A DNA stretch of 64,000 bases. Origin: Candidatus Thorarchaeota archaeon (lineage in GTDB: Archaea; Asgardarchaeota; Thorarchaeia; Thorarchaeales; Thorarchaeaceae). This document shows, in pieces, positions 11,470 through 47,928 of this stretch; the stretch's first letter is position 1, and every line of letters starts with the position of its first letter. The stretch is from positions 1 to 64,000 of the forward strand of contig SDNP01000017.1 of NCBI GenBank assembly GCA_004524445.1, written 5' to 3'. A model generated the notes under the pieces. The model did no database searches. It was given only the letters and a program-made list of their open reading frames with translations, and was not told the DNA's origin. Position numbers and translations under genes: made by a program.

Positions 11470-14391
11470 TTATTGTTTTGTCCAAATATCAGAGGTCACT
11501 AGATTCGCTGCTGAATCATACTCAAAGCCAGTCCCAGAGAGGCTGCTCACAGTAAATGTGTAATCTCCGGTAGGCAAGAACTGGTTCGGTCTGAAGTAAT
11601 AGGTAAAAACGACTTCACCGTTCGAGTCAGTAACTCCTGTATAGCTCTCGATTGAGCCATCGGGTAATAACAAATCGCCATCAATAGTTACACCCTCGAT
11701 TGCAGAGCCAAATTCATCTGCTACCTTTACAGTAATGTCCAGGTATTCTGTCCGGCCATTAGCTGAATATCTGGTTGAGAAGGAGATACTTGATACATGC
11801 ACTTTTGTAGTTGAACTCTGACCGGCATTACTTTCTCCAGGGGTTGGTGAAGTAAAGGTGGTCCATGTGGATCCACCGTCGGTCTCACGACCATAACTGA
11901 CATCATCAGAAGAGGATGAGTAGCTGTAGGAGTCTAGAACAGTTGTCCCATCCGGCTTGAGGAAGTTCACAGTGTCGCCGTCATTGTTCAAAGCTATACC
12001 AGTTACACCTTGATAGAACACTACGAAGCCATATGCTGGGATTGTTGTTCCATCAGGGATGGCATAAGCTCCAGTTCCACCTGAGGTGATGTCATCCAAG
12101 ATATAGCCGGAGATGTCTACTTGAGTGTCAGATGGATTGTAGAGCTCGATCCATTCCTCACTGTATAAGGTATAGGGGTCTGGAAGGAACTCGTTCAATA
12201 GCACCACATCTCCACTCCCAGAAGTGCCGCCATTTGATTCTCCAGGGGTTGGTGAAGTAAAGGTAGTCCAAGTAGACCCGCCATCGGTCTCGCGTCCATA
12301 ACTGACGTCATCAGAAGAGGATGAGTAGCTGTATGAGTCTTGTACAGTTGTCCCATCGGGCTGGATGAGATTTGCTGTGTCTCCTGCATTATTCAAACCA
12401 ACCCCAGTAGTTCCCTGATAGAATACTAGGAAACCCTTTCCGGGAATGGTTGTGCCGTCCGGTATTGTGTACGGATTAGTCCCCCCATCTGTGATATCAT
12501 CCAAGATGTACCCAGATAGGTCGGCATCCAAGTCTTGTGGATTGTATAGCTCAATCCATTCTTCACTATACAGGGTGAAAGGATCCGGCAGAAACTCGTT
12601 GAGTACGACAAGAGTGGCACTTCCACCCTCGTTTGTGGTTGCAGCAGCAGGGTCAGATTTTGGCCCCTCATTCAGGCTTGTATCACGAGCCGAAACCTCG
12701 TAAGTGTATGTCGTACTGGGCTCAAGTCCAGTATCACTGTAGAGGGTATCATATACTTGTGCAATAAGAGCACCATCTCTGTACACACGGTAATGAGAAA
12801 GATCGGTTTCTGTGTTAGCGTCCCAAGACAAGTCGATTTGTGACATGCTCACAGTCGTTGCAGTCAGACCTGTGACTTGAGCTGGCGGAGTAGTATCTGG
12901 TTCGGATGTTGAATTCCAACTGACAAAGAGGTCAACAGAATAGTGGTCCGAACCTGTATCCGCGGTGGGTGTATCGCCACAAGTTGAATTAATCAGCTTG
13001 TCATTGAAATATGAATTGACTATCATGAAGTCGATTCTCGATGTATATTGCGTGTCTTGATGTCCGTAGGTATAACCGGGATCTGTGGGATTTAGTGTCC
13101 TGAAGACGTCCGTGAAGGTATGTACAGTGGATGAATATTGTCCATAAGTTGGATCTGATGGGTACATCTTCATCGTCATGGGTCCATAGCCTAAGTCGCC
13201 CATCGGGGCTAAGTCGCCGGTATCATCAGGAGAGAATGAATTGAGGTCACCCATGTACATAATGGGAACATTGCCAAGGTTATCCATGTAATTGATGATT
13301 CCCTCCGTTTCTCGTTCTCGCCTCCATTCATTTTCTGAACCTGACATTGCCTTCAAATGCGAACCAAAGACATGGACAACGGTTCCGTCAATATCCAACA
13401 CTGCCTCCACAAAGTCGTGAGTGACATCATAATCAGACCCATCATCAAGAGGAACAAGGGGGATTTGGTTGAACTCTAAGACAGGATATCTGCTCAGAAT
13501 GGCCTCTCCGCTGGTTGAGTAGGTGATATCTTGAGCACAATAGCCAGTATATGGTACTTCGTCTGTGAAGTACGAATTGAACTCATTGACGACATCGCTC
13601 AGGAGTTGGTTGCCATTATCATCCCAAGTACCCGTTTCTACAACAATAAGAATATCTGGATTTTCTTCCTTTACCACTTGTTTCCAATCCTCATTTGCCC
13701 CAGATGCTTCAATATTGTACGTCATTACCTTGAAGGCGTCACTGATTGGTTCCTGGGAGCCCGTATTGTCGATGGTCACAGTGTTGGTATCAGACCCAGT
13801 TAGACCACCAGTATCAGTGGCTTCTGCGAATATCTCGTGTGTGCCATCTGCATAACCAGTAGTGTCCCAATTGTAGGTGGATGCCGAGGCAACAAAAGTT
13901 CCATCAATGTATATATCTGGAGTGAGTGTTTCCTCATCATTTACGGATATAGTGATGCTTACAGTTCCAGAAACAGTTGAACCATCAACGGGATTCGTAA
14001 TGGTGACTGAAGGAGCAAGATTTTCGCCACTGTTGTCAACTGTGACCAAGATGGAGTCTTCACCCCAATTCTTTGAATTGTCTCTTGCCCTACATGTTAT
14101 GGAGTGGTCACCATCTGACTCTACAGTAGTGTCCCAGTCGTAGGTCTGGTCTTCGTAATAGAGTTGTCCATCTATAAGAATCTCATACCCTACGACCGGA
14201 TTCTCATCAGTGGCTGAAAACGTGATTGTGACAATCCCAGACACTATTTCACCATCGCTTGGATTGGTGATAGTGACCGATGGTGGTGTTGTATCCTTCG
14301 GAGGCCTGGCTGCAAATGTTGGTGAAACTATAGCTAGACCTATGAGAAGGAATGATACTGCAAAGAATAGAGTGAACTTATGAAATTTCAA
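11470..14391 (-). CDS. Secreted endonuclease/exonuclease/phosphatase-family protein with Ig, FN3 and lamin-tail domains
   Basis: A 973-aa exported protein. Domains in order: signal peptide (1-28); two Ig-like domains (about 34-120 and 125-212), each with a T(I)TNPxDGxxVSGxVxI signature; an EEP catalytic domain (218-495); an FN3 domain (500-590); two lamin-tail domains (about 593-725 and 728-860); and a C-terminal Ig-like domain (865-973). EEP motifs visible are MTYNI, VETGTW (metal-binding Glu), GSHLKA, GDLNSF and SDHYSV with the general-base His. All key residues appear present, so it is probably an active extracellular DNase or phosphodiesterase. Lamin-tail domains are common in secreted nucleases and may bind nucleic acid or the surface. 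Confidence 0.88.
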   Translation of the reverse strand: MKFHKFTLFFAVSFLLIGLAIVSPTFAARPPKDTTPPSVTITNPSDGEIVSGIVTITFSATDENPVVGYEILIDGQLYYEDQTYDWDTTVESDGDHSITCRARDNSKNWGEDSILVTVDNSGENLAPSVTITNPVDGSTVSGTVSITISVNDEETLTPDIYIDGTFVASASTYNWDTTGYADGTHEIFAEATDTGGLTGSDTNTVTIDNTGSQEPISDAFKVMTYNIEASGANEDWKQVVKEENPDILIVVETGTWDDNGNQLLSDVVNEFNSYFTDEVPYTGYCAQDITYSTSGEAILSRYPVLEFNQIPLVPLDDGSDYDVTHDFVEAVLDIDGTVVHVFGSHLKAMSGSENEWRRERETEGIINYMDNLGNVPIMYMGDLNSFSPDDTGDLAPMGDLGYGPMTMKMYPSDPTYGQYSSTVHTFTDVFRTLNPTDPGYTYGHQDTQYTSRIDFMIVNSYFNDKLINSTCGDTPTADTGSDHYSVDLFVSWNSTSEPDTTPPAQVTGLTATTVSMSQIDLSWDANTETDLSHYRVYRDGALIAQVYDTLYSDTGLEPSTTYTYEVSARDTSLNEGPKSDPAAATTNEGGSATLVVLNEFLPDPFTLYSEEWIELYNPQDLDADLSGYILDDITDGGTNPYTIPDGTTIPGKGFLVFYQGTTGVGLNNAGDTANLIQPDGTTVQDSYSYSSSSDDVSYGRETDGGSTWTTFTSPTPGESNGGTSGSGDVVLLNEFLPDPYTLYSEEWIELYNPSDTQVDISGYILDDITSGGTGAYAIPDGTTIPAYGFVVFYQGVTGIALNNDGDTVNFLKPDGTTVLDSYSYSSSSDDVSYGRETDGGSTWTTFTSPTPGESNAGQSSTTKVHVSSISFSTRYSANGRTEYLDITVKVADEFGSAIEGVTIDGDLLLPDGSIESYTGVTDSNGEVVFTYYFRPNQFLPTGDYTFTVSSLSGTGFEYDSAANLVTSDIWTKQ
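11835..12610 (-). repeat. Duplicated lamin-tail domain, 405-bp unit
   Basis: The segments encoding the two lamin-tail domains are close copies. For example CTCCAGGGGTTGGTGAAGTA occurs at 11835 and again at 12240, 405 bp (135 codons) apart. Much of the coding sequence between is near identical, marking a recent tandem duplication. Confidence 0.8.
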
Positions 14392-15163: not shown

Positions 15164-15493
15164 GTGAAATCCAGTGCGCTTGCCACCACAGCATTGAATT
15201 CTCAACCAGGATGCGACCAATCCAGTTGCATCATCTTCTACAGGAGCGACTACTGTTTCTTTTGTGATGCTGCACATGAAATCCTATCGGACACCTTGAC
15301 TCAATTTGGCATGTCAAAGGACTCGGTGACGGAAATAGATGTAGGACAAAACGAGGAGAGTGTGTATGAGCGGGAGATTCTTGGGCTCCCGACGATTACA
15401 ATTTGCCAGGAGAAGATTCTAGGTCTTCCTGACAAAGGAGTAGTCAGAGATGCATTAATGAAAGCAATGCTACGCGATTGCTTCCGAGAATAG
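15164..15493 (+). CDS. Thioredoxin/glutaredoxin-like protein with CFFC
   Basis: A 109-aa protein with a GTG start and a GGGAGGTG ribosome-binding site. IIFYRSDYCFFCDAA (residues 24-38) is the first strand and active-site turn of a thioredoxin fold, with Cys32 and Cys35. The cis-Pro element is GLPTITIC near residue 73. There is an extra Cys17 before the fold, Cys77 beside the cis-Pro, and a late Cys105. It probably acts as a disulfide reductase in the cytoplasm. The CFFC dipeptide is unlike the CGPC of classical thioredoxin and closer to glutaredoxin/NrdH-like types. Confidence 0.75.
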   Translation: MKSSALATTALNSQPGCDQSSCIIFYRSDYCFFCDAAHEILSDTLTQFGMSKDSVTEIDVGQNEESVYEREILGLPTITICQEKILGLPDKGVVRDALMKAMLRDCFRE

Positions 15494-16701: not shown

Positions 16702-17115
16702 ATGAGGAATCAAACAAAACTCATTATCATTGGAGCGATCATAATGGTACTTCTTTCTAGTGTCATTGTCTATGCTCTTGTTGATGATGTTAAGGGGCCT
16801 TTGCTCTATCAGGTGGATATCCTGCCTCAGTCGCCTGTTGTGGGGGACATCGTCAGCGTCGCAGTCTATTGCATTGATCCCTCAGGAGTTTCAGGTGCCA
16901 AATTACACTACACCCTTGACGGGGATACCTGGAATACAAAGGAGATGCAATTCTTAGCATGTCTTTGCATAGCTGGAGGAAGATGGACTGCGTCTTTCGG
17001 TCCCCTTGAATCAGGCGACACGCCTAAATTCTATGCCACGGTATTTGATGACTCTCCCTTCAAAAATCCTGAGGACAGCGATGTATTCACTCTTGAGATT
17101 GAAGACTCAGAATAA
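16702..17115 (+). CDS. Membrane-anchored Ig-like protein, first gene of ABC/NosL-like cluster
   Basis: About 137 aa from the ATG at 16702, which AGGAGAG places better than the in-frame GTG at 16693. A signal-anchor helix (5-27) is followed by one extracellular beta-sandwich: VVGDIVSVAVYCIDPSGVSG, then a YTLDGDTW hairpin and a final FTLEIE strand. A CLC pair and one further Cys sit in the domain and could form a disulfide or bind metal. It overlaps the next gene (TAATG). It starts a tight six-gene unit ending with an ABC pair, so it probably works at the outer face with that transporter. Confidence 0.65.
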   Translation: MRNQTKLIIIGAIIMVLLSSVIVYALVDDVKGPLLYQVDILPQSPVVGDIVSVAVYCIDPSGVSGAKLHYTLDGDTWNTKEMQFLACLCIAGGRWTASFGPLESGDTPKFYATVFDDSPFKNPEDSDVFTLEIEDSE

Positions 17116-17324
17116 TGGTGATTGACATGAAACTACAGATTATACTAAATATGGTCATACTGATTCTTGGTCTCGTGGTGGCAATAGCACCATGGACCTT
17201 CGCGCCAGTATGTATCATCGAAATGAGATGCTGGCTAACTCGTGACGTGGAAACCGTTCTGGGAATAGCCATTGCTGTATTGGCATTAGTAGGGATGTAC
17301 AAAGGTATGGAAGAGCAGCTATGA
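17115..17324 (+). CDS. DUF4418-like small membrane protein
   Basis: A 69-aa protein with two membrane segments (about 8-28 and 45-63) separated by PVCIIEMRCWLTRDVE. This Cys...MxCxxT loop before a second helix matches my recollection of the DUF4418 family (C...MKCHWT...). The two cysteines face one side of the membrane and could hold a metal or disulfide. The ATG overlaps the previous stop codon (TAATG), so translation is coupled. The role of DUF4418 is unknown; its placement with an FtsX-type ABC pair and a NosL-like protein suggests metal or redox handling. Confidence 0.6.
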   Translation: MVIDMKLQIILNMVILILGLVVAIAPWTFAPVCIIEMRCWLTRDVETVLGIAIAVLALVGMYKGMEEQL

Positions 17325-17338
17325 AGTAGGATCTCAGA

Positions 17339-17806
17339 ATGAACTCTCAACAACGAACCCTTCTTCAGGTAGTCTTTGTAATCGTAGGAATCATTGGTAT
17401 CTATACCTTCACTTCAGTTGCTGCGCCTGTTCGGCACTATTGTTCCTGGACGGGGCTAGAAATAAAGGAAAGAATTGGTCACGAGGTGACATTCACATAC
17501 TTCAACGGATCAGTGGATTATTACTGCTGTGTCAACATATCCCTTTTGGCATTCCAGAGACTTGTAGAGGAAAACAGCTTGAATCTTATTGAAGAAATTC
17601 ATGTCCGGTGTCCGATGTGCGGCATGTTGATGGCTTGGGACGATCCCATGATTGTCTGGGTGTTATCAAAAGAATATACCAATCCGACTACGAACGAAGT
17701 CACAATAGTACCTCTTTGCGAGGATGTGGAGGCAGAGGATCTTTGTGAGAGCCATTTTTTGGATGTCTATGGTGGAGTAATCATTGAGAACCCATTCGAT
17801 TTCTAG
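17339..17806 (+). CDS. NosL-like Cys-motif membrane-anchored protein
   Basis: A 155-aa protein with a signal-anchor (8-28) and an extracellular domain with two Cys groups. The first is HYCSWTGLEIKERIG plus DYYCC; the second is RCPMCGMLMAW, the CxxCGM motif typical of NosL copper chaperones. Two more cysteines sit near the C-terminus (LCEDVEAEDLC). NosL binds Cu(I) during maturation of nitrous oxide reductase, but no nos structural gene is present here. A role as metal carrier for the neighbouring ABC unit is inferred. The assignment rests on one motif and the layout. Confidence 0.6.
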   Translation: MNSQQRTLLQVVFVIVGIIGIYTFTSVAAPVRHYCSWTGLEIKERIGHEVTFTYFNGSVDYYCCVNISLLAFQRLVEENSLNLIEEIHVRCPMCGMLMAWDDPMIVWVLSKEYTNPTTNEVTIVPLCEDVEAEDLCESHFLDVYGGVIIENPFDF

Positions 17807-17822
17807 ATGAGGTGTTTGCATA

Positions 17823-18233
17823 ATGAAGAAATCTTCTATCCCCGTTCTTGTTCTGCTTTTTTCATTAATGTTCAATCTAGGATTCTTCATTGCATATACT
17901 CTTGGCAATCATGTAAGCACAGGGTGGTCGCTGGTTGATATAGGCCCAGCAGTGATTCAGGACTCCTATTATGGTGGAGCAATAGCATTGGAGTCGCCAT
18001 TTGGGATGATTGGAGTGGTGCCAGGTGGCTATTCACCATATTTTGGCAATCCGCTTCAAAATCCGAGCTATCTACCTTATTCTCAGTGGATTGACAGCCG
18101 AGTACCAATTGAACTAGCGAACCCGTCAGTCGACATGAATATGCTTTTGGTGGCAGTGATTCTACTTGTCATTCCCATTTTCTTGGTCTATGCGATAGGG
18201 AGGAGGTCCTATGGGGCTACAAAAGCACAGTAA
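17823..18233 (+). CDS. Membrane protein with N- and C-terminal TM helices, unknown
   Basis: A 136-aa protein with a hydrophobic N-terminus (7-27), an extracellular segment of about 80 residues rich in Gly, Pro, Tyr and Ser (GVVPGGYSPYFGNPLQNPSY), and a C-terminal helix (106-126) followed by a basic tail. No family recognised. It overlaps the downstream permease by 23 bases, so the two are translationally linked. The loop is aromatic and low in charge, as in substrate- or partner-binding loops, but no function can be stated. Confidence 0.6.
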   Translation: MKKSSIPVLVLLFSLMFNLGFFIAYTLGNHVSTGWSLVDIGPAVIQDSYYGGAIALESPFGMIGVVPGGYSPYFGNPLQNPSYLPYSQWIDSRVPIELANPSVDMNMLLVAVILLVIPIFLVYAIGRRSYGATKAQ

Positions 18234-19425
18234 TCTCGCAGGATACGCACTCGGAAATATCTTGAAACATAAGACAAAGACGGTTGCATTACTGATAGCC
18301 TTGATTACATCGACCTTTCTTCTCGCGTCAACAGAATTTATTCGCGAGGGAGTGGTTAGAGATGTAAATTCATCACTAGAGGAAGGGCCTGATATTGTTG
18401 TGCAGAGATTGGTCGGAGGTAGACAGGTGGCCGTCCCCCATAGTTGGGTTGACAATGTATCAAAGACTGCGGGAGTCCAGCTAGCTTCACCGCGGGTCTG
18501 GGGATACTCGGATATCGGAACCGGTAGTTTGCTCACAGTGATGGGCGTGAATGCTTCAGATTATGGAGAAGCATATGGAGCAGTGGGAACCAATATTCTC
18601 GAGAGCGGCAGATTTCTTAGGGAGAATGATACAAACAGAATGGTTGTTGGAAAGGGGATTGTTGATCTAATGGCAGCATCCCATTCTAGCCTCCATGTAG
18701 AAGTTGGGTCCAATCTATCATTAATCTCCTATGATGGCAGATTGATCAATTTCCAGATAGTAGGCATTTTTACTTCAGAGTCGAAGATTTTCAGTTATGA
18801 TTTGATTTTGACTGACTTGGAGAGCGCAAGAAGTGTAATTGGAGGTGAGAATTCCACCTTTACAGATATTGCCGTGTGGACTGAACTCGGGGCACCTCTC
18901 AATGATGTGGCATTCCGACTCGACACTAGGATGCCAGATGCCAGAGTATTGACACGGGACGGAATTTCAGATTCGATGCTAAAGGTATATGGTGGACGAG
19001 CTGGTATAATCGCTATTCTATGGGCAATCATCCTCGTGATTGTGGTCCTACTGGCCTTGACTGTGTCAAGTGGAGGGTCAGATGAATCAAGGAGAGAAGT
19101 AGGGCTTCTGAAGGCACTAGGATTTGACACTGTGGATGTTATAGAAATACGAATGTTCGAGAGTACATTCGTGGGTTTGCTTGGAGGAAGTATTGGTCTC
19201 TCAGCGTCAATAGTATTCGATTTCATTCTTGGGGCGCCTGTACTATCAGGATATTTGCTCGGATGGAATCTGCTACTCTTGAATGGTGGTATTCCTCTAA
19301 GCTTTTCCCCACAAATCCTGTTCATCGTGTATTCAATGTCTGTCATCCCTATCCTAGTTGCAACTGTTTTGCCAGCATGGAGAAATGCAATCATTGAACC
19401 AGATTCGGTTCTGCGGGGGGTCTAG
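18211..19425 (+). CDS. MacB/FtsX-type ABC transporter permease
   Basis: A 404-aa permease with an N-terminal helix (about 22-42), an extracellular domain (45-265) and three C-terminal helices (about 268-290, 320-350, 368-392). SRREVGLLKALGFDTVDVIEIR between helices 2 and 3 is the FtsX coupling motif. The extracellular part is shorter than in many MacB proteins. The ATPase follows five bases downstream. Together they form a MacB/LolD-like machine in the same unit as the DUF4418-like and NosL-like genes. I infer that it extracts or drives a surface substrate handled by those proteins. Confidence 0.87.
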   Translation: MGLQKHSNLAGYALGNILKHKTKTVALLIALITSTFLLASTEFIREGVVRDVNSSLEEGPDIVVQRLVGGRQVAVPHSWVDNVSKTAGVQLASPRVWGYSDIGTGSLLTVMGVNASDYGEAYGAVGTNILESGRFLRENDTNRMVVGKGIVDLMAASHSSLHVEVGSNLSLISYDGRLINFQIVGIFTSESKIFSYDLILTDLESARSVIGGENSTFTDIAVWTELGAPLNDVAFRLDTRMPDARVLTRDGISDSMLKVYGGRAGIIAILWAIILVIVVLLALTVSSGGSDESRREVGLLKALGFDTVDVIEIRMFESTFVGLLGGSIGLSASIVFDFILGAPVLSGYLLGWNLLLLNGGIPLSFSPQILFIVYSMSVIPILVATVLPAWRNAIIEPDSVLRGV

Positions 19426-19429
19426 AAAA

Positions 19430-20104
19430 GTGGTGCTTGCCCGGGCAGAGAATGTATGGAAGATTTACAATAGTGGAGAGCCCCATGAAGTTTCCGCGTT
19501 GAGAGGGGTTTCTCTAAACATTGAGAGGGGGAGGGCTACCGCATTAGGAGGGCCAAGCGGTTCGGGAAAAACAACACTACTGAGTCTAATAGGTCTCTTG
19601 AGTAAACCCACAAAAGGAAACATATTCATAGAAGACCAAGAGTATTCAATCCTTTCAGAAGTCTACCGTACCAAAATACGTAGAGAGAAAATCGGATTCA
19701 TCTTTCAGTCGGAGTATCTGATGCCTCAGTTGACAACCATTGAGAATGTTGCTCTACCAAAGCTGGCTACAGACACACCTCGGTCAGTTGCAGAATCCAA
19801 AGCCAAGGAACGACTAATCGAGCTTGGGATGGAGAAGCGTCTCAATTTCCGAGTTGCGGAGTTGAGCGGCGGGGAACGTCAACGAGTCAGTATTGCCAGA
19901 GCCATGATAAATGATCCAGACCTTCTGATTGCTGATGAGCCAAGTAGTTCCATAGACCAAGAATTAACATTGGAGGTGCTTGAACTCCTCCGAAGTATGA
20001 TGAAACAGAATGCATTGACTGTGATAGTTGCGTCCCATGATCCGCTCGTCCTCGAATGGGCAGACGTAAAATACATGATGGAAGATGGGTCGATTATTAC
20101 ATGA
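19430..20104 (+). CDS. MacB/LolD-type ABC ATPase
   Basis: About 224 aa from GTG at 19430 (a second GTG follows directly); the in-frame ATG further upstream lies inside the permease gene. Walker A GPSGSGKT (41-48), signature LSGGERQR (145-152), Walker B LLIADEPS (165-172) and H-loop SHDP near 208 are all present. The D-loop reads SSSID where SGNLD-type sequence is usual. It ends the six-gene unit and is convergent with the Cys-cluster membrane gene at 20129. Confidence 0.9.
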   Translation: MVLARAENVWKIYNSGEPHEVSALRGVSLNIERGRATALGGPSGSGKTTLLSLIGLLSKPTKGNIFIEDQEYSILSEVYRTKIRREKIGFIFQSEYLMPQLTTIENVALPKLATDTPRSVAESKAKERLIELGMEKRLNFRVAELSGGERQRVSIARAMINDPDLLIADEPSSSIDQELTLEVLELLRSMMKQNALTVIVASHDPLVLEWADVKYMMEDGSIIT

Positions 20105-20128
20105 AAATGCATTTGCATATATTCGAAT

Positions 20129-21109
20129 TCAAGATGCGACGATTAAATGAGATACGAGGCTAGTGAGAGAAAAAATAAGGCACACCGCAGATACTTTCCT
20201 CGACAGTGCCAAAACCCCATCTATTTGATTTATGGACAGGCCGTTGCGACTCCAGAGGAATTCCAAGACCACGTTCCAAATAGACATGACAACCCCCAAC
20301 CAGAACAGTCCAGCAAAGACGGCAGTATCAGGAAACTCTTGAAACAAGCAATAGGGGCAATGGTGACTGGATAATCCAAGAACGACAGGAGCCACTGTAT
20401 CATGAATAGCAGTAAGATAAGAGAATCCAAGAAGTGGACCAAGTGTCAAGATTGTAATGAGCCGTCTATTAAGAGGAAGTTCAATCAATTCTATTGCTAT
20501 GATGATTGTGGCTAATGTAATTGTCAACACAATAATAGCAATCCCCACTTCCGGACCGAACAAGGCGGACGGAGAAAAGGGCGGTTCAACATCGTAAACA
20601 CTCGAACAGCAGGGAGCATATACCGGCTGAATTAGAGAAACAAGAAGTACATCTAGTACACTCTCAACTACGAGGACAGGAAGCAAAACTAGAGCGAAGC
20701 TTTTTGCCAATAGATTAGCCATTGCCAAATCTTTACTTCTTCTATTTGCTATCTCAATGAAAATCCATTGCCCGTAAAGCGCCGGTACGATGAGTTTGAG
20801 AGCCATATCAAGGGAGGAAAAAGGTTCTGAAACATTGACAACTCCCGAGATACACATTGCTCCAGGACAATAGGGAACAAGCGATTGAAGCATCCAGAAG
20901 AACAGGGGCGCGGCAACAAGTCTAGCTGCTAGGACAATCAAGCCAATCATGCCCAAGAGATAGTATTTTTGTTCGGCAGTCTGGCTGCCATTCGAATTTT
21001 CATTCTTATCTCCTGTGATAGATAATGAAATGTGCCCACCATAGAATGCTAGTACTAGAGATAGTATTGCTAGCACCATGAGGACAATGGTGGAAACGGT
21101 GATAATCAT
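20129..21109 (-). CDS. Polytopic membrane protein with three Cys clusters
   Basis: A 326-aa protein with about eight or nine hydrophobic segments. Cysteines fall in three loop groups: YCPGAMC (residues 80-86), APCCSS (166-171) and SHHCPYC (about 250-256). If all three loops lie on the same face they could form a metal or disulfide site; HHCPYC has a thioredoxin-like CxxC preceded by histidines. I do not recognise the family. It faces the NosL-like/ABC unit tail to tail, with 24 bases between stops, and shares its Cys-rich membrane character, so a joint function is possible. Confidence 0.6.
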   Translation of the reverse strand: MIITVSTIVLMVLAILSLVLAFYGGHISLSITGDKNENSNGSQTAEQKYYLLGMIGLIVLAARLVAAPLFFWMLQSLVPYCPGAMCISGVVNVSEPFSSLDMALKLIVPALYGQWIFIEIANRRSKDLAMANLLAKSFALVLLPVLVVESVLDVLLVSLIQPVYAPCCSSVYDVEPPFSPSALFGPEVGIAIIVLTITLATIIIAIELIELPLNRRLITILTLGPLLGFSYLTAIHDTVAPVVLGLSSHHCPYCLFQEFPDTAVFAGLFWLGVVMSIWNVVLEFLWSRNGLSINQIDGVLALSRKVSAVCLIFSLTSLVSHLIVAS

Positions 21110-24738: not shown

Positions 24739-26157
24739 TCAAAGACAAATCCAATACCACTCAGCATATTCGGGTGAATTCATGACACGCGAGTCAGAGG
24801 GAAGATGAATATGGTTGCCGTTGGTCTTGAAGTCTGTGTCACCTGATTCGTATACAAAGCCACAGGTTCCCACCGCCTGGTCACCATTAATGGCTGTAAC
24901 GAAATAATTGCGAACAAGATGAGCTGTGCCAATGCTATCATACCAGCTAATCTCGTAAGTGATGAGATTTTGGTCACCCAATGACATGATGACATCAATT
25001 CCTGTAATCACGTCAGGTTGAAAGATATCAGATCTCAAATCATGTGCAGTGACATTAACGTCTTCAAACGTCCAGACGTTGTTTCTCCCTGCAATTCTGA
25101 CATGCGGGATGATGAGGTTCCCAGTATTACTCTGAAGGCGCTCATTCTCCTCAACAAAAGAGGAGTATATCTGAGTGATTCTGCTCTCAGATGCTTGATA
25201 AAACTCGAGTCTGGTGAGAGGCTTCCAGTGATAGTGGTCCATTCTAAAGACATTACGCTCCGGCCATCCTCCACTATACCATGTTCGATACCACCAGAAC
25301 AACTCACCATTAATAGTGTCAATGACGAATGTATTCATGGTTGCATTGAAATGGTACGCCAACTGAATGTGTCCCAAATCTGCTATATGTACCAACACAT
25401 CAAACATCGAAAAGGCGCCCTCTTTGAATATATCCGGCCTTCTTGTAACAACATTGCTTGAATTGAATTGATAGCTGGTATCTCCAATAGTGGCAGATCC
25501 AACAGCATCTCCGATGGGTTCAATTGGGACGGTAGCAGTTGGATCATCATCCCCCGGATTTGTTGTTTGTATGGGCGGTGAAAGACCTGGTTGAAATTGT
25601 AGGAAACTGACTACCAACAAGAGGCCGATTGTTGTTGTGAATATAACTGAATTGGCCATCCTCTTCCTTATTCTCTTTCGGATTGTAAAGAATTTCAAAC
25701 CAACGGCAACATGGATTATTATTGTAACAACAAGACCAAAATCATAGACTCTATGCCAATTGAATGGTATTATGCCGTCAAGATAAACGGCGAAGAACTC
25801 GTACCCTAAGAGACCGGATGTGATTACAAGAAATGCGAAGGCTATGATCATCCAACTGGATACACGCTGGACTAATCTGAGAAGATTCACCTTCAGACCC
25901 CTCCCAGCCATAATTCTCTGCAATAATCGTTTCCTATTGATACTGAAATGCCAGAGTGTAATTCCTACATGAAGAGCAAGAAGGGCTATGAAGAATACCT
26001 CAAATACACGATGCAGAGCAGAAATGAGGTAGATTTGGGAAATCCAACCGCGAGAGAGGCTATACCCAGTCCCAATGGTTCCAATTGATACCAGGGCGAG
26101 CAGCCAAGATATTGCTCTGTGAATCATGATTTTGGAGGGTGGCATTACCACCTGCAA
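24739..26157 (-). CDS. Predicted di-heme four-helix membrane cytochrome with extracellular domain
   Basis: A 472-aa protein counted from TTG 26157 (ATG 26145 is an alternative). Five hydrophobic segments occupy residues 12-190. Two of them repeat one pattern: HRVFEVFFIALLALH (49-63) and HRVYDFGLVVTIIIH (135-149), each with His spaced 14 apart. This is what a four-His, two-heme bundle of the b561/DUF4405 kind would show. Residues 230-472 form an extracellular domain with a HIHLPSDSRV motif and a WYWICL end. It probably passes electrons across the membrane to or from that domain. The family name is a guess; the His repeat is seen directly. Confidence 0.65.
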   Translation of the reverse strand: MQVVMPPSKIMIHRAISWLLALVSIGTIGTGYSLSRGWISQIYLISALHRVFEVFFIALLALHVGITLWHFSINRKRLLQRIMAGRGLKVNLLRLVQRVSSWMIIAFAFLVITSGLLGYEFFAVYLDGIIPFNWHRVYDFGLVVTIIIHVAVGLKFFTIRKRIRKRMANSVIFTTTIGLLLVVSFLQFQPGLSPPIQTTNPGDDDPTATVPIEPIGDAVGSATIGDTSYQFNSSNVVTRRPDIFKEGAFSMFDVLVHIADLGHIQLAYHFNATMNTFVIDTINGELFWWYRTWYSGGWPERNVFRMDHYHWKPLTRLEFYQASESRITQIYSSFVEENERLQSNTGNLIIPHVRIAGRNNVWTFEDVNVTAHDLRSDIFQPDVITGIDVIMSLGDQNLITYEISWYDSIGTAHLVRNYFVTAINGDQAVGTCGFVYESGDTDFKTNGNHIHLPSDSRVMNSPEYAEWYWICL

Positions 26158-41757: not shown

Positions 41758-44700
41758 TCACCTTGTTTCTTTCTTAGATTCTATAGATTCTTTCTTCTCC
41801 ATCGTTATTCCTGAACCAAAGGGGCCACCCGAAGAACGATAGCGGGTCAGTAGAAGAGACCCGACGACGATTTCTGCAACAATTGCAATAGTCCAAAACA
41901 TCATCATAATAGTATCTATGGCAGGCCCAGAAGATACTTGGATTAGGACTGTTCCCGATGCTCTTTCGAACTCAATTCCATCAATTGTATGAAGAGCAAT
42001 GATATAGTTTAAACGAGAGCCATCTGGATAACCACCTCTAATAGCATATGCAAAAGCACCATTTTCGTCCGTGGAAGTGGTTTGGTATTCCGACGTGCTG
42101 TTCAGATATATTCGCACTCTTCGCCCGACAATGGGATTCTCTTGGTCATCCAGCAGCCTCCCAGATATTGAGAATGTTGAGTCGGGAAATACGGATGACG
42201 GAGATAGGTCAAGAATTTCAACAGCCACAACGATATGCACCGTTGATTCACTTGTGTCGTCTGAAGCGTCAATGAGCCCTACACCGCTGAAGACCGCTCT
42301 AGCAACAAAATGACCACTTCCGGCAGTCCAGCCAGTAGAAATATCGATGGTTGTGGTGAAGAGACCGGTTCCGGATAGAGTGACTGTCTGCATTAGCGTG
42401 TTGTTTAGGTAGATGTCAACATCTTCTCCACCTACTGAATTTCCATCCTCATCCACTAGATTGACACTAACTGTGAAATTCTCACTGACAAGAACAATGC
42501 CATCGCTTTCAATAACAATGGAAACTATTGAACGCAGGTGTACGTCCACTATCCAGAAGTCTGATGCCTCGGATAGTTCGCGATAGCTAGACACTGCAAT
42601 AGCACTGAGATTGTATGAACCAGCCTCCTGGTCAGATTCTATGACAATGGTGAAGATGAAGTTACCGTTTGAATCGGTAGTGGTGGTTAGTCCTGTGAGT
42701 GTGCCGTTGACTAACAGCTCCACCTCTAAGTCACCAATTCCACCCCCTTCGTTGGTTACACTGCCATTCATTTCAAGTGAGTCACCCCTGTTAACGACAG
42801 CGACCTCTTGAGTATCGAGGATGATTGTGATTGAATCACGCACTTCTACAAATTCTTCAGTTGTTTCGGCTTCGGAATACGCTTCTGATGGTTGAACGAA
42901 TCTGGCATAGAGGGCAATCAGACCAACATCTTCAAAGTATGGCAAGTTCAGATAGTGAATATAGGATCCGTCTATGCCATCTTCAACTGTGATTGTGGCT
43001 ATTAGTTCACCATTCCAGAAAATCTCTACATCTTCATTGACGATAGCTGTACCATTTCCAAAGGTAAGAGTGCCATTGATTGTGATAGTATCGCCCAAGT
43101 ATGCCAAAGACACGTTAGCTGATACAGTGAGCGAAACTGGAATCTGTTCAATAAATGCACTTCGAATGGATGACTCTCCTGATGCAACATAGGAGTCAGT
43201 CGGAGTACAATTTGCCCAGATATCCTTGAGGCCAAGCGTTTCAGTATTTCCAATTCTAAACAGGTATTGAAACGAGCCATCAGCTTCAGTGACGACTGAA
43301 ATAATGAGTTCTGCGAATTCATCTGAGCCAACTGATATCCAGTAGATATCTACAGTCTGTCCTCCATACGATGTTCCGTCGTCTAACTCAAGGGTCCCAG
43401 ATATGTTTAGCCATTCACTCCGATAGACCGTAAGTGGATAGGATATCGCACTGTTTAGTGTTAGTGTCCAGACTAGTTCATACGGGTCAATATCGATGGA
43501 TATAGGGGCAGATGTCGTATTAGATATCCAGTTATTGGATGACGTGAATCTAGTTGTCAAATCGTATGTACCAGGGGGATACGACTGTGGAACTGTCCAA
43601 TAACCTGTGAATGAACCATCGGCGGCTGATGTTGTAGTGTCAACTACTTCTCCATTAACAAGAATCTCTACTATGCCCCCACCATATGGCACATCGGGAT
43701 CGGGTTCATCATAATACAAGATTCCCGATATCACGATGGTTTCCGTTGGATGATAGGAGGTTGTCCCGCCCGTACTGATGGAGGAGAATGTCGTTGACCA
43801 TCTCAATAATGTGAGTGACTGATGAGCAGACTCCTTGGCCTCGATAAGACTCGTCCCAGAATAGGTTGCATACACCTCCACTGACAGGATAGTGTCCTCA
43901 TCCATCTTGTCATATATGAAAGAGACCTCTCCCGTGGCATTTGTTGTGAGTGTGACCAGATTGAAATCTGTTCCATTGTACCACCATAGAGTTATCTCTG
44001 CGTTTGAGATATCAGACCCATTTAGAAAGAACAGGTGTGCTGTTATTGTCACTGTTTCATTAAGATGCACCGGATTTGGATTAACACTAACATCAAGGAC
44101 AACCGGATAAAGCTGCAACGTAATAGTGGTGCCTGGTATTGAGGATGCATCATCCCAGAGGGCATTTGTGCTGGAATAGTCCGCCCAGATTGTGACATCA
44201 CCCGGAGAGTCATCCGGTGGAGAGAGGTTGATTGTCAAGTTGTAATGGCCGGTTGAATTGGTGGTATGGAAACCAAGATCAATCTCATCAGTACCATTAT
44301 CCCAAAATACACGAACCTGCTCGTTCGGAATTCCTGTTCCGTTGTGTGTGAAAGAAAGCTGCCCAAAGATGAAGACGGCCTGATCAAGGTAATAGGAAGA
44401 GCTATTGGTTGCAGTTGTGAGGTCTAGTGCATAGAGAATTACTTGAACAGTCCTCATAGGAGAGGTTGCATTATCCCAAAGGGGATTGGTACTCCTATAC
44501 TCTGCCCAGATGTAGATAGCTCCCAATGCGTCGGCAAATGAATAATTGTAGAGGAATGAATATCCTCCAGATGAGTTTGTTATCCTGAGGTATTCAGAGA
44601 CTGTTTCATTACCATAGTCATAGAAGATGCTTATCGTTTCTCCTGATATTGGTGCGCCATTCTCGACAAAAGAAAGGGTCCCGGAGAATAGTAGGACCTC

Positions 44701-47700
44701 GTCTTGGTGTACTTGGGTTGCATTTACAGTACCGGTCAAGTCCAGTTGATAGAGCTGCACTGTGAGAGATGGACTGAGCCAAGCCGATGAGCTGTTGTAT
44801 ATCGGATCGGTAGAGGTGTGAATTGCCTGAATATCTATTATGCCTTCTGAGTCTTGACTCAGTGAGAAGTTGTAAACGAATGAGTAATCTCCGCTTGAGT
44901 TCGTCACCACAAAGAAGGAATATGCTGAGCCATTGTCCCATTGTATCTCGACTGTATATCCAGCTAGGGGGGTTCCATTATTCAAATGCAGATTCCCATA
45001 GATGAGGATAGACTCATTTAGGTGGACAATAGTTGAGTTTGAATTAACTGATATGATTGAGGCGTAGTTCGAAACAGACAATGAGATATGTTGGGACTCG
45101 TTACTTGCGAATGCGGCTGTGGGGGATATGAATTCCGTCCAGACTCGTACGGCTGCAAGTTCATGGTCGATAGGAACTTGATAATCAAACAGGTAGCCAC
45201 CGCTTGAATTGGTATATGTCCCCGTAAGGTTATGAGTACCGGTTGAGTTCTGCCACCAGATTGTTAGATGAGCTCCTTGAAGCAAGGCAGGGATTTCCGG
45301 CAAAACAACCAACCCTTGGATACGAACAACTTCTGATCTACTAACGGGATTAGGAGTTGCGGAGATAGTGATAGTAACATCATACTTCTTCACAGTGATT
45401 GAAAGATTCACTGAGCGGCTGCTCTGATAGTAAGGTTCTGTTGATGAAAATTCGCTCCAATAGGTCACTTGACCTTCATAACCGCTTGGAACGGTGTATA
45501 CAAATTCATAATATCCAGTTGATGTTGTTGTGTTACTCCCGATTTCGACGGGCCCGCCATCAGCCTCCCACCATATGTCTATCGTTCTGTCGGCAAGTGC
45601 GGTACCATTCGAGGCATCTGTAAGATAGCCATAGATTGTTATGTTCTCAAAAATATGCACTGGGTCGGGGGAGCGAGGTGAGGAGTCAATGCTCAAGTCA
45701 GTAAGTCCCGACCTAATAGTAATTGGAATCGGGATGCTCGTATTACCATCCAGAAGGGAGAATGTGGATGTCCAGTTGACCTGTGCGTAGGCTGTACCTG
45801 GGGGATAGTCCCAAGGGACATCATAGCTAAATAGGTAGCCTCCTGAGCTATTAGTTGTGGTTGTGGAAACCAGTGTTCCATTAAGAATGATACCAACTGT
45901 TTCTCCAACTAGAGGTGTACCATTAAGTAGTTCTAGAGTTCCCTCATATGTGATATTTGAACCAGCATAGGTATCAGTTGGAGATACTGAAAGTCCGAAG
46001 CTTGGATGTCCACGAACTTCCACCGTGGAGTTATCTTCGGATCGACCCGGCAATATAATCGGAAATCCTGTTTCGCTGTCATATTCGCCAGCATACTGAG
46101 CCCATAGTAAGTGGTCGCCCGTTACCATGCGAACAAGGTCCGCAGGATTAACAAAGATATCAATCTCATAGTGCCCATCCGATTCAATTGTGGCATTGCC
46201 ATAGAATAATTCATCCCACATTATCTGCATCTGATCGTTATCCAGTGTTGTACCATCCACAGGTTGACCATTGACAGTTAGGGTGCCATACACATGAAGG
46301 ACATCTTCCCAATGAGCGGTGTAGTTATCAAAGCCAAGCTTGATATTCACGTCGGTTGTTTCGCTCGGAATGAAATTCGAGCTCTTTCTGAGGGGTTGTG
46401 TCGACAATGGATTGGCCTCACCCACAGCATATACTGTAGTGAAATTGCTTATCGAATAGACGTCAGAATTCCAAGTTGCTGATATATTATGGGAACCAAT
46501 TGTTGCATTGTCGGGGAACGTGTAGGTGATATTTGCCAAGGGCAAATAAGTTCCCTGTTCAATCTCCGCTGTGCCCATCAATACATTGTCTGTCTCATCA
46601 CGATAAACAATTGTTTCATTTCTGGTCACTGGGATGTCATTTACGAGGAGGAGCGAACTCAAATTGAATGGTTCACCAATGAGAGACCATTGTGGTGGAA
46701 AGACGTAGAGGGAAACATTTCCTTCTCCGGAATTAGCTGGGAGCTCACCACCGCCCATATTATCTGGAAGACTAAGCGGTATGACTTGAATCCACTCTCC
46801 ACCTCCGCCCTGAAGAGGAATAAAGACTTCCGCGTAAAACATCATATGACGTACTCGAATAATTCGATAGCCGTCCTGGGCATCCCCAAGCGCATAACCT
46901 GTTGTCATTCGTGCAGGTATTCCTAAGTCACGCATGAAGACACAATAGGCGGTCGCGAAGTCCATTGGCAGGCCTCCACCTCGTTCTATAAACCAATCTG
47001 TCACTTCACGGTCACTTGGAGGTCTCTCATTGATGCGGTCCTCATCAATTATGAGATCATAGGTGTCACGAAAGTATACCTCAACTGCGCGTGCTTTCTG
47101 ATAGGCATTATCTCCGACATCAACGAATTGGTCCACTTCGTTTTGGACGCGAGGTGTGAGTTCACCCACCAAGGAGAGGTCAGTATACAGGCTGGTGATA
47201 CTAGCTGGGGCTGCGCTGCCTTCTACTGCATTATCTGAGATGTTCTGTTGATTTTGTTCGGTGTATGTCACATTATAGCTGACTAGTATGGTTTCGTTTG
47301 TATCACCCAGAAGCATTGGACTAAATCGTACTGTTCCATAATCATCGGTAGAGAGTTCATAACTCTCAATCCTTCCCGCAGGTTCACTCTGAAACGAGTC
47401 TTGGATTATCTGAGCCTCAGGAAAAATCGTCGGCAACTGAATCTCACCCACGTTAGGCCCAACAGAAATATTCAGGTAAATGGTATAGATAGTATTCCCT
47501 TGATTGGTCGCCACTTCTTGTGAGATGCCAGAAAAGGAGTATTGGGAAGCTTGTGTTTTTGACCAACCAGAGCCGTCATACTCATCGTATGCGCTATTCC
47601 GCCATAATTGAGGAGGTTGGTCCGGTTCTGCTATAAAGACAACATTTTCCATTTGTTCAAGAAGATTCTCCGGTAGTTCTTGATCTAGTGGTAAATCAGT

Positions 47701-47928
47701 ATAATTCACGTTCTCAAACCAGTTAGTACGTCCACCGGCCCATTCAAGGTCGTATTCCCAGGGAGGGATTTCCTCATATGGTTGATGTGGCTGATATGCT
47801 CTAACGTTTCCGCTCTGTATCATTATGAGGGTATAAGTCCCCCAAATAATGGTGGCAATAATGAATAGGGAACTAGCTATGGTGATTATTCCCATTTTTC
47901 GTTTGGTCTCTATCTTGCTGGCACTCAA
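41758..47928 (-). CDS. Giant Ig-repeat surface protein with degenerate transglutaminase domain
   Basis: A 2056-aa protein: a cytoplasmic start, TM helix (about 13-37), a beta-rich region (60-240), a transglutaminase-like domain (about 270-390), then some 14 Ig-like repeats of about 100 residues with recurring NGT-x-L-x-G-x-x-V-x-I-x-W and TNSSGGYxFxY motifs, and a C-terminal TM helix (about 2005-2028) with a Lys-rich tail. In the transglutaminase domain the region RGGGLPMDFATAY has Pro321 where the catalytic Cys belongs. His361 is kept in RHMMFYAEV, but Ile383 replaces the Asp (WIQVIP). It is probably non-catalytic and used for binding. It has many N-x-S/T sites. It heads the MoxR operon. Confidence 0.85.
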   Translation of the reverse strand: MSASKIETKRKMGIITIASSLFIIATIIWGTYTLIMIQSGNVRAYQPHQPYEEIPPWEYDLEWAGGRTNWFENVNYTDLPLDQELPENLLEQMENVVFIAEPDQPPQLWRNSAYDEYDGSGWSKTQASQYSFSGISQEVATNQGNTIYTIYLNISVGPNVGEIQLPTIFPEAQIIQDSFQSEPAGRIESYELSTDDYGTVRFSPMLLGDTNETILVSYNVTYTEQNQQNISDNAVEGSAAPASITSLYTDLSLVGELTPRVQNEVDQFVDVGDNAYQKARAVEVYFRDTYDLIIDEDRINERPPSDREVTDWFIERGGGLPMDFATAYCVFMRDLGIPARMTTGYALGDAQDGYRIIRVRHMMFYAEVFIPLQGGGGEWIQVIPLSLPDNMGGGELPANSGEGNVSLYVFPPQWSLIGEPFNLSSLLLVNDIPVTRNETIVYRDETDNVLMGTAEIEQGTYLPLANITYTFPDNATIGSHNISATWNSDVYSISNFTTVYAVGEANPLSTQPLRKSSNFIPSETTDVNIKLGFDNYTAHWEDVLHVYGTLTVNGQPVDGTTLDNDQMQIMWDELFYGNATIESDGHYEIDIFVNPADLVRMVTGDHLLWAQYAGEYDSETGFPIILPGRSEDNSTVEVRGHPSFGLSVSPTDTYAGSNITYEGTLELLNGTPLVGETVGIILNGTLVSTTTTNSSGGYLFSYDVPWDYPPGTAYAQVNWTSTFSLLDGNTSIPIPITIRSGLTDLSIDSSPRSPDPVHIFENITIYGYLTDASNGTALADRTIDIWWEADGGPVEIGSNTTTSTGYYEFVYTVPSGYEGQVTYWSEFSSTEPYYQSSRSVNLSITVKKYDVTITISATPNPVSRSEVVRIQGLVVLPEIPALLQGAHLTIWWQNSTGTHNLTGTYTNSSGGYLFDYQVPIDHELAAVRVWTEFISPTAAFASNESQHISLSVSNYASIISVNSNSTIVHLNESILIYGNLHLNNGTPLAGYTVEIQWDNGSAYSFFVVTNSSGDYSFVYNFSLSQDSEGIIDIQAIHTSTDPIYNSSSAWLSPSLTVQLYQLDLTGTVNATQVHQDEVLLFSGTLSFVENGAPISGETISIFYDYGNETVSEYLRITNSSGGYSFLYNYSFADALGAIYIWAEYRSTNPLWDNATSPMRTVQVILYALDLTTATNSSSYYLDQAVFIFGQLSFTHNGTGIPNEQVRVFWDNGTDEIDLGFHTTNSTGHYNLTINLSPPDDSPGDVTIWADYSSTNALWDDASSIPGTTITLQLYPVVLDVSVNPNPVHLNETVTITAHLFFLNGSDISNAEITLWWYNGTDFNLVTLTTNATGEVSFIYDKMDEDTILSVEVYATYSGTSLIEAKESAHQSLTLLRWSTTFSSISTGGTTSYHPTETIVISGILYYDEPDPDVPYGGGIVEILVNGEVVDTTTSAADGSFTGYWTVPQSYPPGTYDLTTRFTSSNNWISNTTSAPISIDIDPYELVWTLTLNSAISYPLTVYRSEWLNISGTLELDDGTSYGGQTVDIYWISVGSDEFAELIISVVTEADGSFQYLFRIGNTETLGLKDIWANCTPTDSYVASGESSIRSAFIEQIPVSLTVSANVSLAYLGDTITINGTLTFGNGTAIVNEDVEIFWNGELIATITVEDGIDGSYIHYLNLPYFEDVGLIALYARFVQPSEAYSEAETTEEFVEVRDSITIILDTQEVAVVNRGDSLEMNGSVTNEGGGIGDLEVELLVNGTLTGLTTTTDSNGNFIFTIVIESDQEAGSYNLSAIAVSSYRELSEASDFWIVDVHLRSIVSIVIESDGIVLVSENFTVSVNLVDEDGNSVGGEDVDIYLNNTLMQTVTLSGTGLFTTTIDISTGWTAGSGHFVARAVFSGVGLIDASDDTSESTVHIVVAVEILDLSPSSVFPDSTFSISGRLLDDQENPIVGRRVRIYLNSTSEYQTTSTDENGAFAYAIRGGYPDGSRLNYIIALHTIDGIEFERASGTVLIQVSSGPAIDTIMMMFWTIAIVAEIVVGSLLLTRYRSSGGPFGSGITMEKKESIESKKETR

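Follow-up and report, generated by a model that had tools for sequence, protein, structure and literature searches.

What is the function of a row of membrane protein genes, several of them rich in cysteine motifs, arranged around an ATP-binding cassette (ABC) transporter in an Asgard archaeon? The question is raised by a 64,000-nucleotide stretch (hereafter, the window) of contig SDNP01000017.1 from a Candidatus Thorarchaeota archaeon (assembly GCA_004524445.1), in which six plus-strand genes (g1-g6) are met by a convergent seventh on the minus strand (g7). A preliminary description, made from the letters alone, had proposed a metal- or thiol-handling export system. We found that g1-g7 are a real, conserved gene unit and that they are the archaeal, sequence-divergent form of a bacterial set made of one or more NosL proteins, an anchored protein, an FtsX permease, a LolD-type ATPase, and a g7 relative. 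With chances that we judge about even, the seven genes encode an envelope machine for copper hand-over, similar to NosDFYL and driven by the FtsX/LolD pair, in which the predicted NosL-fold protein g3 would hold copper(I) and g7 would hand it on outside the membrane.

The gene row in the window

The nearest named relatives of the window's proteins are Thorarchaeotal. Re-reading of the open reading frames and letters of the window confirmed the six plus-strand genes and the convergent seventh at the places given in the preliminary description, with the cysteine motifs that it listed:

g1, 16702-17115, plus strand: membrane-anchored protein, labelled immunoglobulin (Ig)-like in the preliminary description, with a conserved CLC motif (FLACLCIAGGRW)
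g2, 17115-17324, plus strand: short DUF4418 protein with PVCxxEMRCWxTR between two hydrophobic stretches
g3, 17339-17806, plus strand: predicted NosL-fold protein with a single N-terminal helix
g3 CPMCGM motif, 17609-17626, plus strand: residues 91-96, about 60 residues into the domain
g4, 17823-18233, plus strand: two-helix protein with a conserved QDSYxxRAPALExxxGxIGDxPGGYS between the helices
g5, 18211-19425, plus strand: FtsX-type permease (PF02687, 34 bits, cut-off 25.5)
g6, 19430-20104, plus strand: LolD-type ABC ATPase (ABC_tran, 115.4 bits)
g7, 20129-21109, minus strand: membrane protein with eight predicted long helices and three cysteine motifs
g7 YCPGAMC motif, 20852-20872, minus strand: GxMC in 29/29 aligned sequences
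g7 CC pair (APCCSS), 20606-20611, minus strand: in 29/29 aligned sequences
g7 HHCPYC motif (SHHCPYC), 20348-20365, minus strand: first His and first Cys in 29/29 aligned sequences, second His in 28/29, last Cys in 27/29

The genes g1 and g2 overlap by one base and g4 and g5 by 23, gaps of 14, 16, and 4 bases separate g2 from g3, g3 from g4, and g5 from g6, respectively, and the ends of g6 and g7 lie 24 bases apart; for g2, comparison with relatives favours a start at 17127. Cysteines occur only in g1, g2, g3, and g7, g4 having none. The Pfam scan gave nothing over cut-off for g1, g3, g4, and g7. The DUF4418 assignment of g2 held, with 36.2 bits against PF14387 (cut-off 27) over profile positions 2-50 of 117, that is, about half of the profile; its Asgard relatives reach position 65. 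For g4, previously called an anchored protein, the sequence reads better as a protein with two helices than as one with a single anchor.

The proposed FtsX/LolD-type pair was recovered in both the Pfam and NCBIfam scans, the nearest NCBIfam models being LolC/E for g5 (47.3 bits, cut-off 362.45) and LolD for g6 (199.2 bits, cut-off 307.75). It resembles LolCDE and MacB in combining an FtsX permease with a LolD-type ATPase, but differs from them in scores far below these cut-offs, in its place apart from ordinary relatives in the FtsX tree (see below) and, unlike the MacB-type exporter suggested earlier, in that ATPase and permease are unfused and encoded by separate genes (g6 and g5).

Conservation in Asgard archaea

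We found g3 in 17 of 227 Asgard genomes, all belonging to the window's own family of 47 genomes, and DUF4418 (g2) in exactly the same 17. The six genes g1-g6 are complete and collinear in 14 of them, the remaining three (L017, L024, and L029) being cut only by contig ends. The gene row is not due to chance, its order being kept in these 17 Asgard genomes to the extent of their contigs, and the preliminary description was right to treat it as one unit. Convergent g7 follows on the g6 side in all 15 g3 loci whose contig extends that far; it stands directly beside g6 in 11 of them, and in the other four there are inserted genes, namely an exported protein of ~480-520 amino acids (L016, L018, and L019) or two other genes (L022). 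Overall, g7 is present in 22 Asgard genomes: 16 of the 17 with g3, three further Thorarchaeota, and three of family f20, which are Heimdallarchaeota (the stretches of L080 and L081 lie within CP070695 and CP070760). The loci of the three further Thorarchaeota (L082-L084) are on contig fragments, two of which hold g5-g7 and end before g3 while the third ends beside g7. In the three Heimdallarchaeota, a weak relative of g1 (24-28% identity) adjoins g7. The alignments comprised 21 of the g3 sequences in hand (A3) and 12 of 13 Thorarchaeal g7 sequences (A2), a cut one (L020) being omitted.

The exported protein between g6 and g7 was seen in four Thorarchaeal genomes (L016:8156-9604, L018:3707-5275, L019:11957-13507, and L082:10421-11899); the L016 copy, the sole one scanned, has BNR (sialidase-like) repeats by Pfam.

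A bacterial counterpart

We scanned named genomes with an alignment of Asgard FtsX proteins and considered the best 80 loci. Eight of these were from Asgard archaea, followed by a Nitrospirae locus (E 2e-51) and a Syntrophobacterales locus (1e-46); the matches then fell off to 6e-13 for a Myxococcales locus and were weaker still for the rest. The Syntrophobacterales locus (L145) encodes, in this order, a CusA/CzcA-type pump, two NosL proteins, a small anchored protein, FtsX, LolD, and a g7-like membrane protein with GAMC, CC, and HHCPFC. The Nitrospirae copy (L203/L238) runs NosL, NosL, anchored protein, FtsX, LolD, g7, and the Myxococcales locus (L146) NosL, FtsX, LolD, g7; no NosL or g7 relative was found at E 0.001 in the other 69 of the best 80 loci. 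The set is present in Thermodesulfobacteriota, Nitrospirota, and Myxococcota, a wider bacterial distribution that the preliminary description had overlooked, as it had the Heimdallarchaeal link to linalool dehydratase/isomerase (Ldi)-like and ECF-S proteins treated below.

Within the phylum of the Syntrophobacterales, g7 relatives occur in 27 of 198 genomes. Among the 20 places read, out of 30 matches in these genomes, 17 have FtsX, LolD, and g7, one LolD and g7, and two g7 alone; NosL was detected by blastp in 12 of the 20, to which Pfam adds L255 and L257. Profile alignment of Asgard and bacterial g7 (hhalign probability 100, E 5.9e-39, 317 columns) places the homology of their sequences beyond doubt. 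The g7 family is large: of 7998 candidates scored, 3615 are relatives at E 0.001, and no Pfam domain was seen in the 120 of them that were listed. One of the named relatives comes from a Geobacter sp.

In a tree of 44 FtsX sequences, the proteins of the set group together, with the exception of the long-branched L257, and apart from ordinary FtsX. The Asgard sequences are sister to the bacterial pair L255/L256 (support 97/95), and the fork uniting all set proteins but L257 has a support of 91/90, below the star line. The tree included 15 rows from bacterial sets and 10 from Asgard archaea, selected by hand, together with 19 loci taken as ordinary; one of the latter, L146, later proved to bear the set, so that 18 of the 69 ordinary loci were sampled.

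The Thorarchaeal row shares FtsX, LolD, g7, and a NosL-fold protein with the bacterial set; g4 may correspond to the small anchored protein, with which it aligns weakly (hhalign probability 37 over 40 columns). The bacterial set differs in having one or two canonical NosL proteins, with CPxCGM at the domain start in most copies, in that no g1 or g2 was seen, and in its g7, which is co-directional rather than convergent as in Thorarchaeota. A literature search that covered few subscription papers found no description of a NosL-FtsX-LolD-g7 set, and the accessible text of two articles that mention NosL together with an FtsX term (PMC13068155 and PMC4326196) does not describe one.

g3, g7, and the side of the membrane

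The predicted model of g3 has a NosL fold, its top Foldseek matches being the NosL chains of NosDFYL, and the bacterial protein L257 bridges g3 and NosL. The NosL relationship suggested earlier is thus borne out by the predicted fold, although not by the profile search (see below). NosDFYL also resembles the Thorarchaeal row in placing a NosL-fold protein beside an ABC transporter. The two differ in that the Thorarchaeal permease is of FtsX type with a LolD-type ATPase instead of NosFY, no NosD was seen among the seven proteins, g1, g2, g4, and g7 are added, and the motif is displaced in g3. In the accessible parts of the literature, NosL is commonly listed together with nitrous oxide reductase (PMC6769254), although a NosL-NosDFY locus without this enzyme (NosZ) is noted in Parageobacillus (PMC13068155). 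The NosZ profile PF18764 had no match in the window's own genome, nor in any control genome.

The model of g7, based on 29 sequences (predicted local distance difference test 88.9, predicted template modelling score 0.87), has eight long helices and no clear match to any solved fold. Its three cysteine motifs lie on short helices, each following an even-numbered long helix and, therefore, all on one face. The loops opposite the motifs are richer in Lys/Arg (means 1.3-2.3 vs 0.2-1.1), a bias from which the motifs are predicted to face outward. As read from their sequences, and for g3 also from its model, g1 and g3 have a single N-terminal hydrophobic stretch and g4 has two, and their conserved portions would lie on the side of the g7 motifs. 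What emerges is a putative cluster of thiol- and metal-binding parts on the outer face, with FtsX/LolD as the driving motor.

Copper as the favoured metal

Genes beside the bacterial sets provide clues about the substrate. CusA/CzcA-type pumps exceed the NCBIfam cut-off in L145, L240, and L247; one more copy in L249, cut at the contig end, scores 617.8 bits, under the cut-off of 701.45, and a match in the control locus L193 has 587.2 bits over half a protein, also under it. SCO1/SenC genes are found near the set in L239, L242, L243, and L252, 'CusB or HlyD' fusion proteins in L247 and L249, and YtkA in L247; PMC13068155 refers to a copper delivery protein of YtkA type. CusA-like or SCO1 genes were counted at 8 of 21 set loci, compared with 6 of 69 for ordinary FtsX (Fisher p 0.003). 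The count is supportive only, because genes neighbouring the set itself served to build the profiles (L249 and L252 alone lying outside the training rows) and the set and control loci come from different taxa. One of the six control matches (L148) is a multidrug pump; if a threshold of 500 bits is applied, a value picked once the scores were known, the counts become 8 of 21 and 1 of 69. The 21 loci omit L250 and L258, where g7 lacks FtsX (L250 has a CusA-like gene), and include L251 (LolD and g7, FtsX unmatched) and both sets of G253. Not every CusA/CzcA pump handles copper; SCO1 and YtkA are the stronger pointers to this metal. With such SCO1 and CusA/CzcA-type neighbours in bacteria, the metal side of the 'metal- or thiol-handling' proposed earlier is therefore favoured, copper first, and we infer handling of this kind also for the Thorarchaeal row.

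In such a machine, the predicted NosL fold of g3 would hold the metal, probably copper(I). ATP hydrolysis by g6 would move g5, so that g5 may work on g3 by analogy with NosFY, which works on NosL in NosDFYL. The role of g7 would be to accept, store, or deliver the metal, and g1, g2, and g4 may be anchored partners.

Besides the origin of the neighbour profiles, several observations weigh against copper hand-over. Foldseek gave no match to g3 at E 0.001 or better; the NosL profile PF05573 did not match g3 at E up to 10, nor any of the 227 Asgard genomes, while it did match the controls B. subtilis and Haloferax; the g3 and bacterial NosL profiles align at the motif only; and g3 carries CxWTGL at the domain start, its CPMCGM being displaced from this NosL position. 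At 13 of the 21 bacterial set loci, neither a CusA-like nor an SCO1 gene lies within reach, and pumps for zinc, cobalt, and cadmium also fall under the CusA/CzcA model. Among the window genes scanned, none beside the Thorarchaeal copy is a known copper gene, and a copper ATPase is present in Thorarchaeal genomes both with and without the set. Finally, three Heimdallarchaeota have kept g1- and g4-like genes and g5-g7 but lack g2 and g3, the run containing Ldi and ECF-S genes in their stead. Even so weighed, copper hand-over is the best-supported function of the set, with about even odds of being correct.

Upstream of the bacterial set, periplasmic-binding-type proteins adjoin SCO1 genes in three loci (L239:3744-5657, L242:5080-6720, and L243:8436-10031), two of them also having a cytochrome c domain.

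An Ldi-type enzyme and other explanations

In the three Heimdallarchaeota, genes for an Ldi-like enzyme, an ECF S-like protein, a g4-like protein, g5, and g6 form one run, with g7 and a g1-like gene nearby, and in three Thorarchaeal genomes (G010, G011, and G021) Ldi adjoins g1, with ECF-S alongside in the two copies read that far. Sequence makes the identity of the Asgard enzyme firm: it matches PF18566 with 73 bits (cut-off 26.1) and LinD in the PDB with E 2.6e-12, and 22 of 23 Asgard Ldi-like proteins keep the CEPx6CN motif of LinD (Ldi). They differ from LinD in being longer (~545 amino acids) and in an N-terminal hydrophobic stretch, and they are linked to the window, which does not contain one, through relatives only. 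Ldi was found in 29 genomes, and 20 Ldi regions were read. Within the window's family of 47 genomes, 17 have Ldi and the set, three the set only, seven Ldi only, and 20 neither (Fisher p 8.8e-5, kinship ignored). Either the set serves the Ldi-like enzyme or both belong to one lifestyle.

The set might, in consequence, be part of a surface system for isoprenoid alcohols or lipids, in which the ABC pair and g7 serve the membrane-anchored Ldi-like enzyme together with its ECF S-like partner, and the cysteine proteins keep the two catalytic thiols of the enzyme reduced or metal-free. Gene order and association speak for this explanation, but we regard it as rather unlikely: the association test takes no account of kinship, Ldi and ECF-S also form a stand-alone unit away from the set in Thorarchaeal genomes whose Ldi regions were read, G096 has Ldi without a g7 match, three set-bearing Thorarchaeal genomes have no Ldi match, the ECF-S label comes from matches under the Pfam cut-offs, and no Ldi was present among 20 flank proteins scanned at bacterial sets, where no wider Ldi search was made. 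Four proteins out of seven (g1, g2, g3, and g7) contain cysteines, which may instead suggest a thiol/disulfide relay: g7 (CC, HHCPYC) and g3 would move electrons or disulfides through the membrane, and matured surface proteins would be released by FtsX/LolD. It would agree with a small thioredoxin-like gene with CFFC at 15164-15493 of the window (below family cut-offs), which also precedes the set by a few genes in L016, L019, L023, L025, L026, and L085, and with AhpC-TSA/Redoxin neighbours in L246 and L244; SCO1 proteins, moreover, can also be thiol enzymes. Nevertheless, the predicted NosL fold and the SCO1 and CusA/CzcA neighbours point to metal, and make the relay unlikely; the lack of a clear solved-fold match for g7 is neutral as to an oxidoreductase.

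If metal is involved, the set could serve in defence against silver, mercury, zinc, or a similar metal rather than in copper delivery, which appears improbable given that SCO1/SenC neighbours suit the assembly of copper enzymes and that MerB ranks far below NosL in the match list. Since the FtsX and LolD families are very common, one may also think of an ordinary Lol/MacB-like exporter with unrelated cysteine-rich neighbours; yet the same gene company recurs in three bacterial phyla as well as in a family of archaea, and the FtsX proteins form a separate group in the tree, so that this explanation is highly improbable. Copper hand-over by a NosDFYL-like machine could also be combined with the Ldi link in a bolder proposal, which we advance tentatively and consider doubtful. 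The set would be a second kind of NosL machine, with FtsX/LolD replacing NosFY and the eight-helix GAMC/CC/HHCPFC protein as metal acceptor, spread through two lineages of Asgard archaea and through anaerobic bacteria. The Asgard form would have turned to serving a surface Ldi-type isoprenoid enzyme; in Thorarchaeota the NosL copper site would have shifted to the opposite half of the fold, and Heimdallarchaeota would have lost NosL.

That NosL-fold proteins are combined with an ABC transporter of FtsX type and with the large, unnamed g7 family of membrane proteins points to a more general envelope copper route. Asgard archaea gain a copper-handling candidate where the NosL profile detects nothing, and the so far untested g7 family becomes testable in bacteria.

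The window's own genome also carries, on another contig (C30), an Ldi-like enzyme followed by an ECF S-like protein (L117:9527-11815). This pair recurs in many Thorarchaeal and four Heimdallarchaeal genomes, one Thorarchaeal genome having two pairs (L121).

DUF4418 beside other FtsX transporters

In one bacterial genome, DUF4418, FtsX, and LolD-type genes are consecutive (L261:7141-9511). This trio resembles the Thorarchaeal row in that DUF4418 adjoins an FtsX permease and its ATPase, but g2 spans only half of DUF4418, and L261 has no NosL or g7 relative; DUF4418 seems to have a link of its own to FtsX transporters. The other bacterial DUF4418 locus (L262) begins at a contig end and has no FtsX in it. 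In Bifidobacterium longum, the locus tags of a DUF4418 gene and of an ABC permease stand next to each other, according to the accessible text of PMC7701253.

Other genes of the window

Past g7, a membrane protein (24739-26157) has a weak match, under the cut-off, of cytochrome b561 type; in L023, L026, and L084 it is likewise found a few genes past g7. Two large proteins are encoded elsewhere in the window: one of 973 amino acids (11470-14391), exported, with Ig domains, an endonuclease/exonuclease/phosphatase domain, fibronectin III, and two lamin-tail domains, and another of 2056 amino acids (41758-47928) with a transglutaminase core and macroglobulin/Ig-like repeats.

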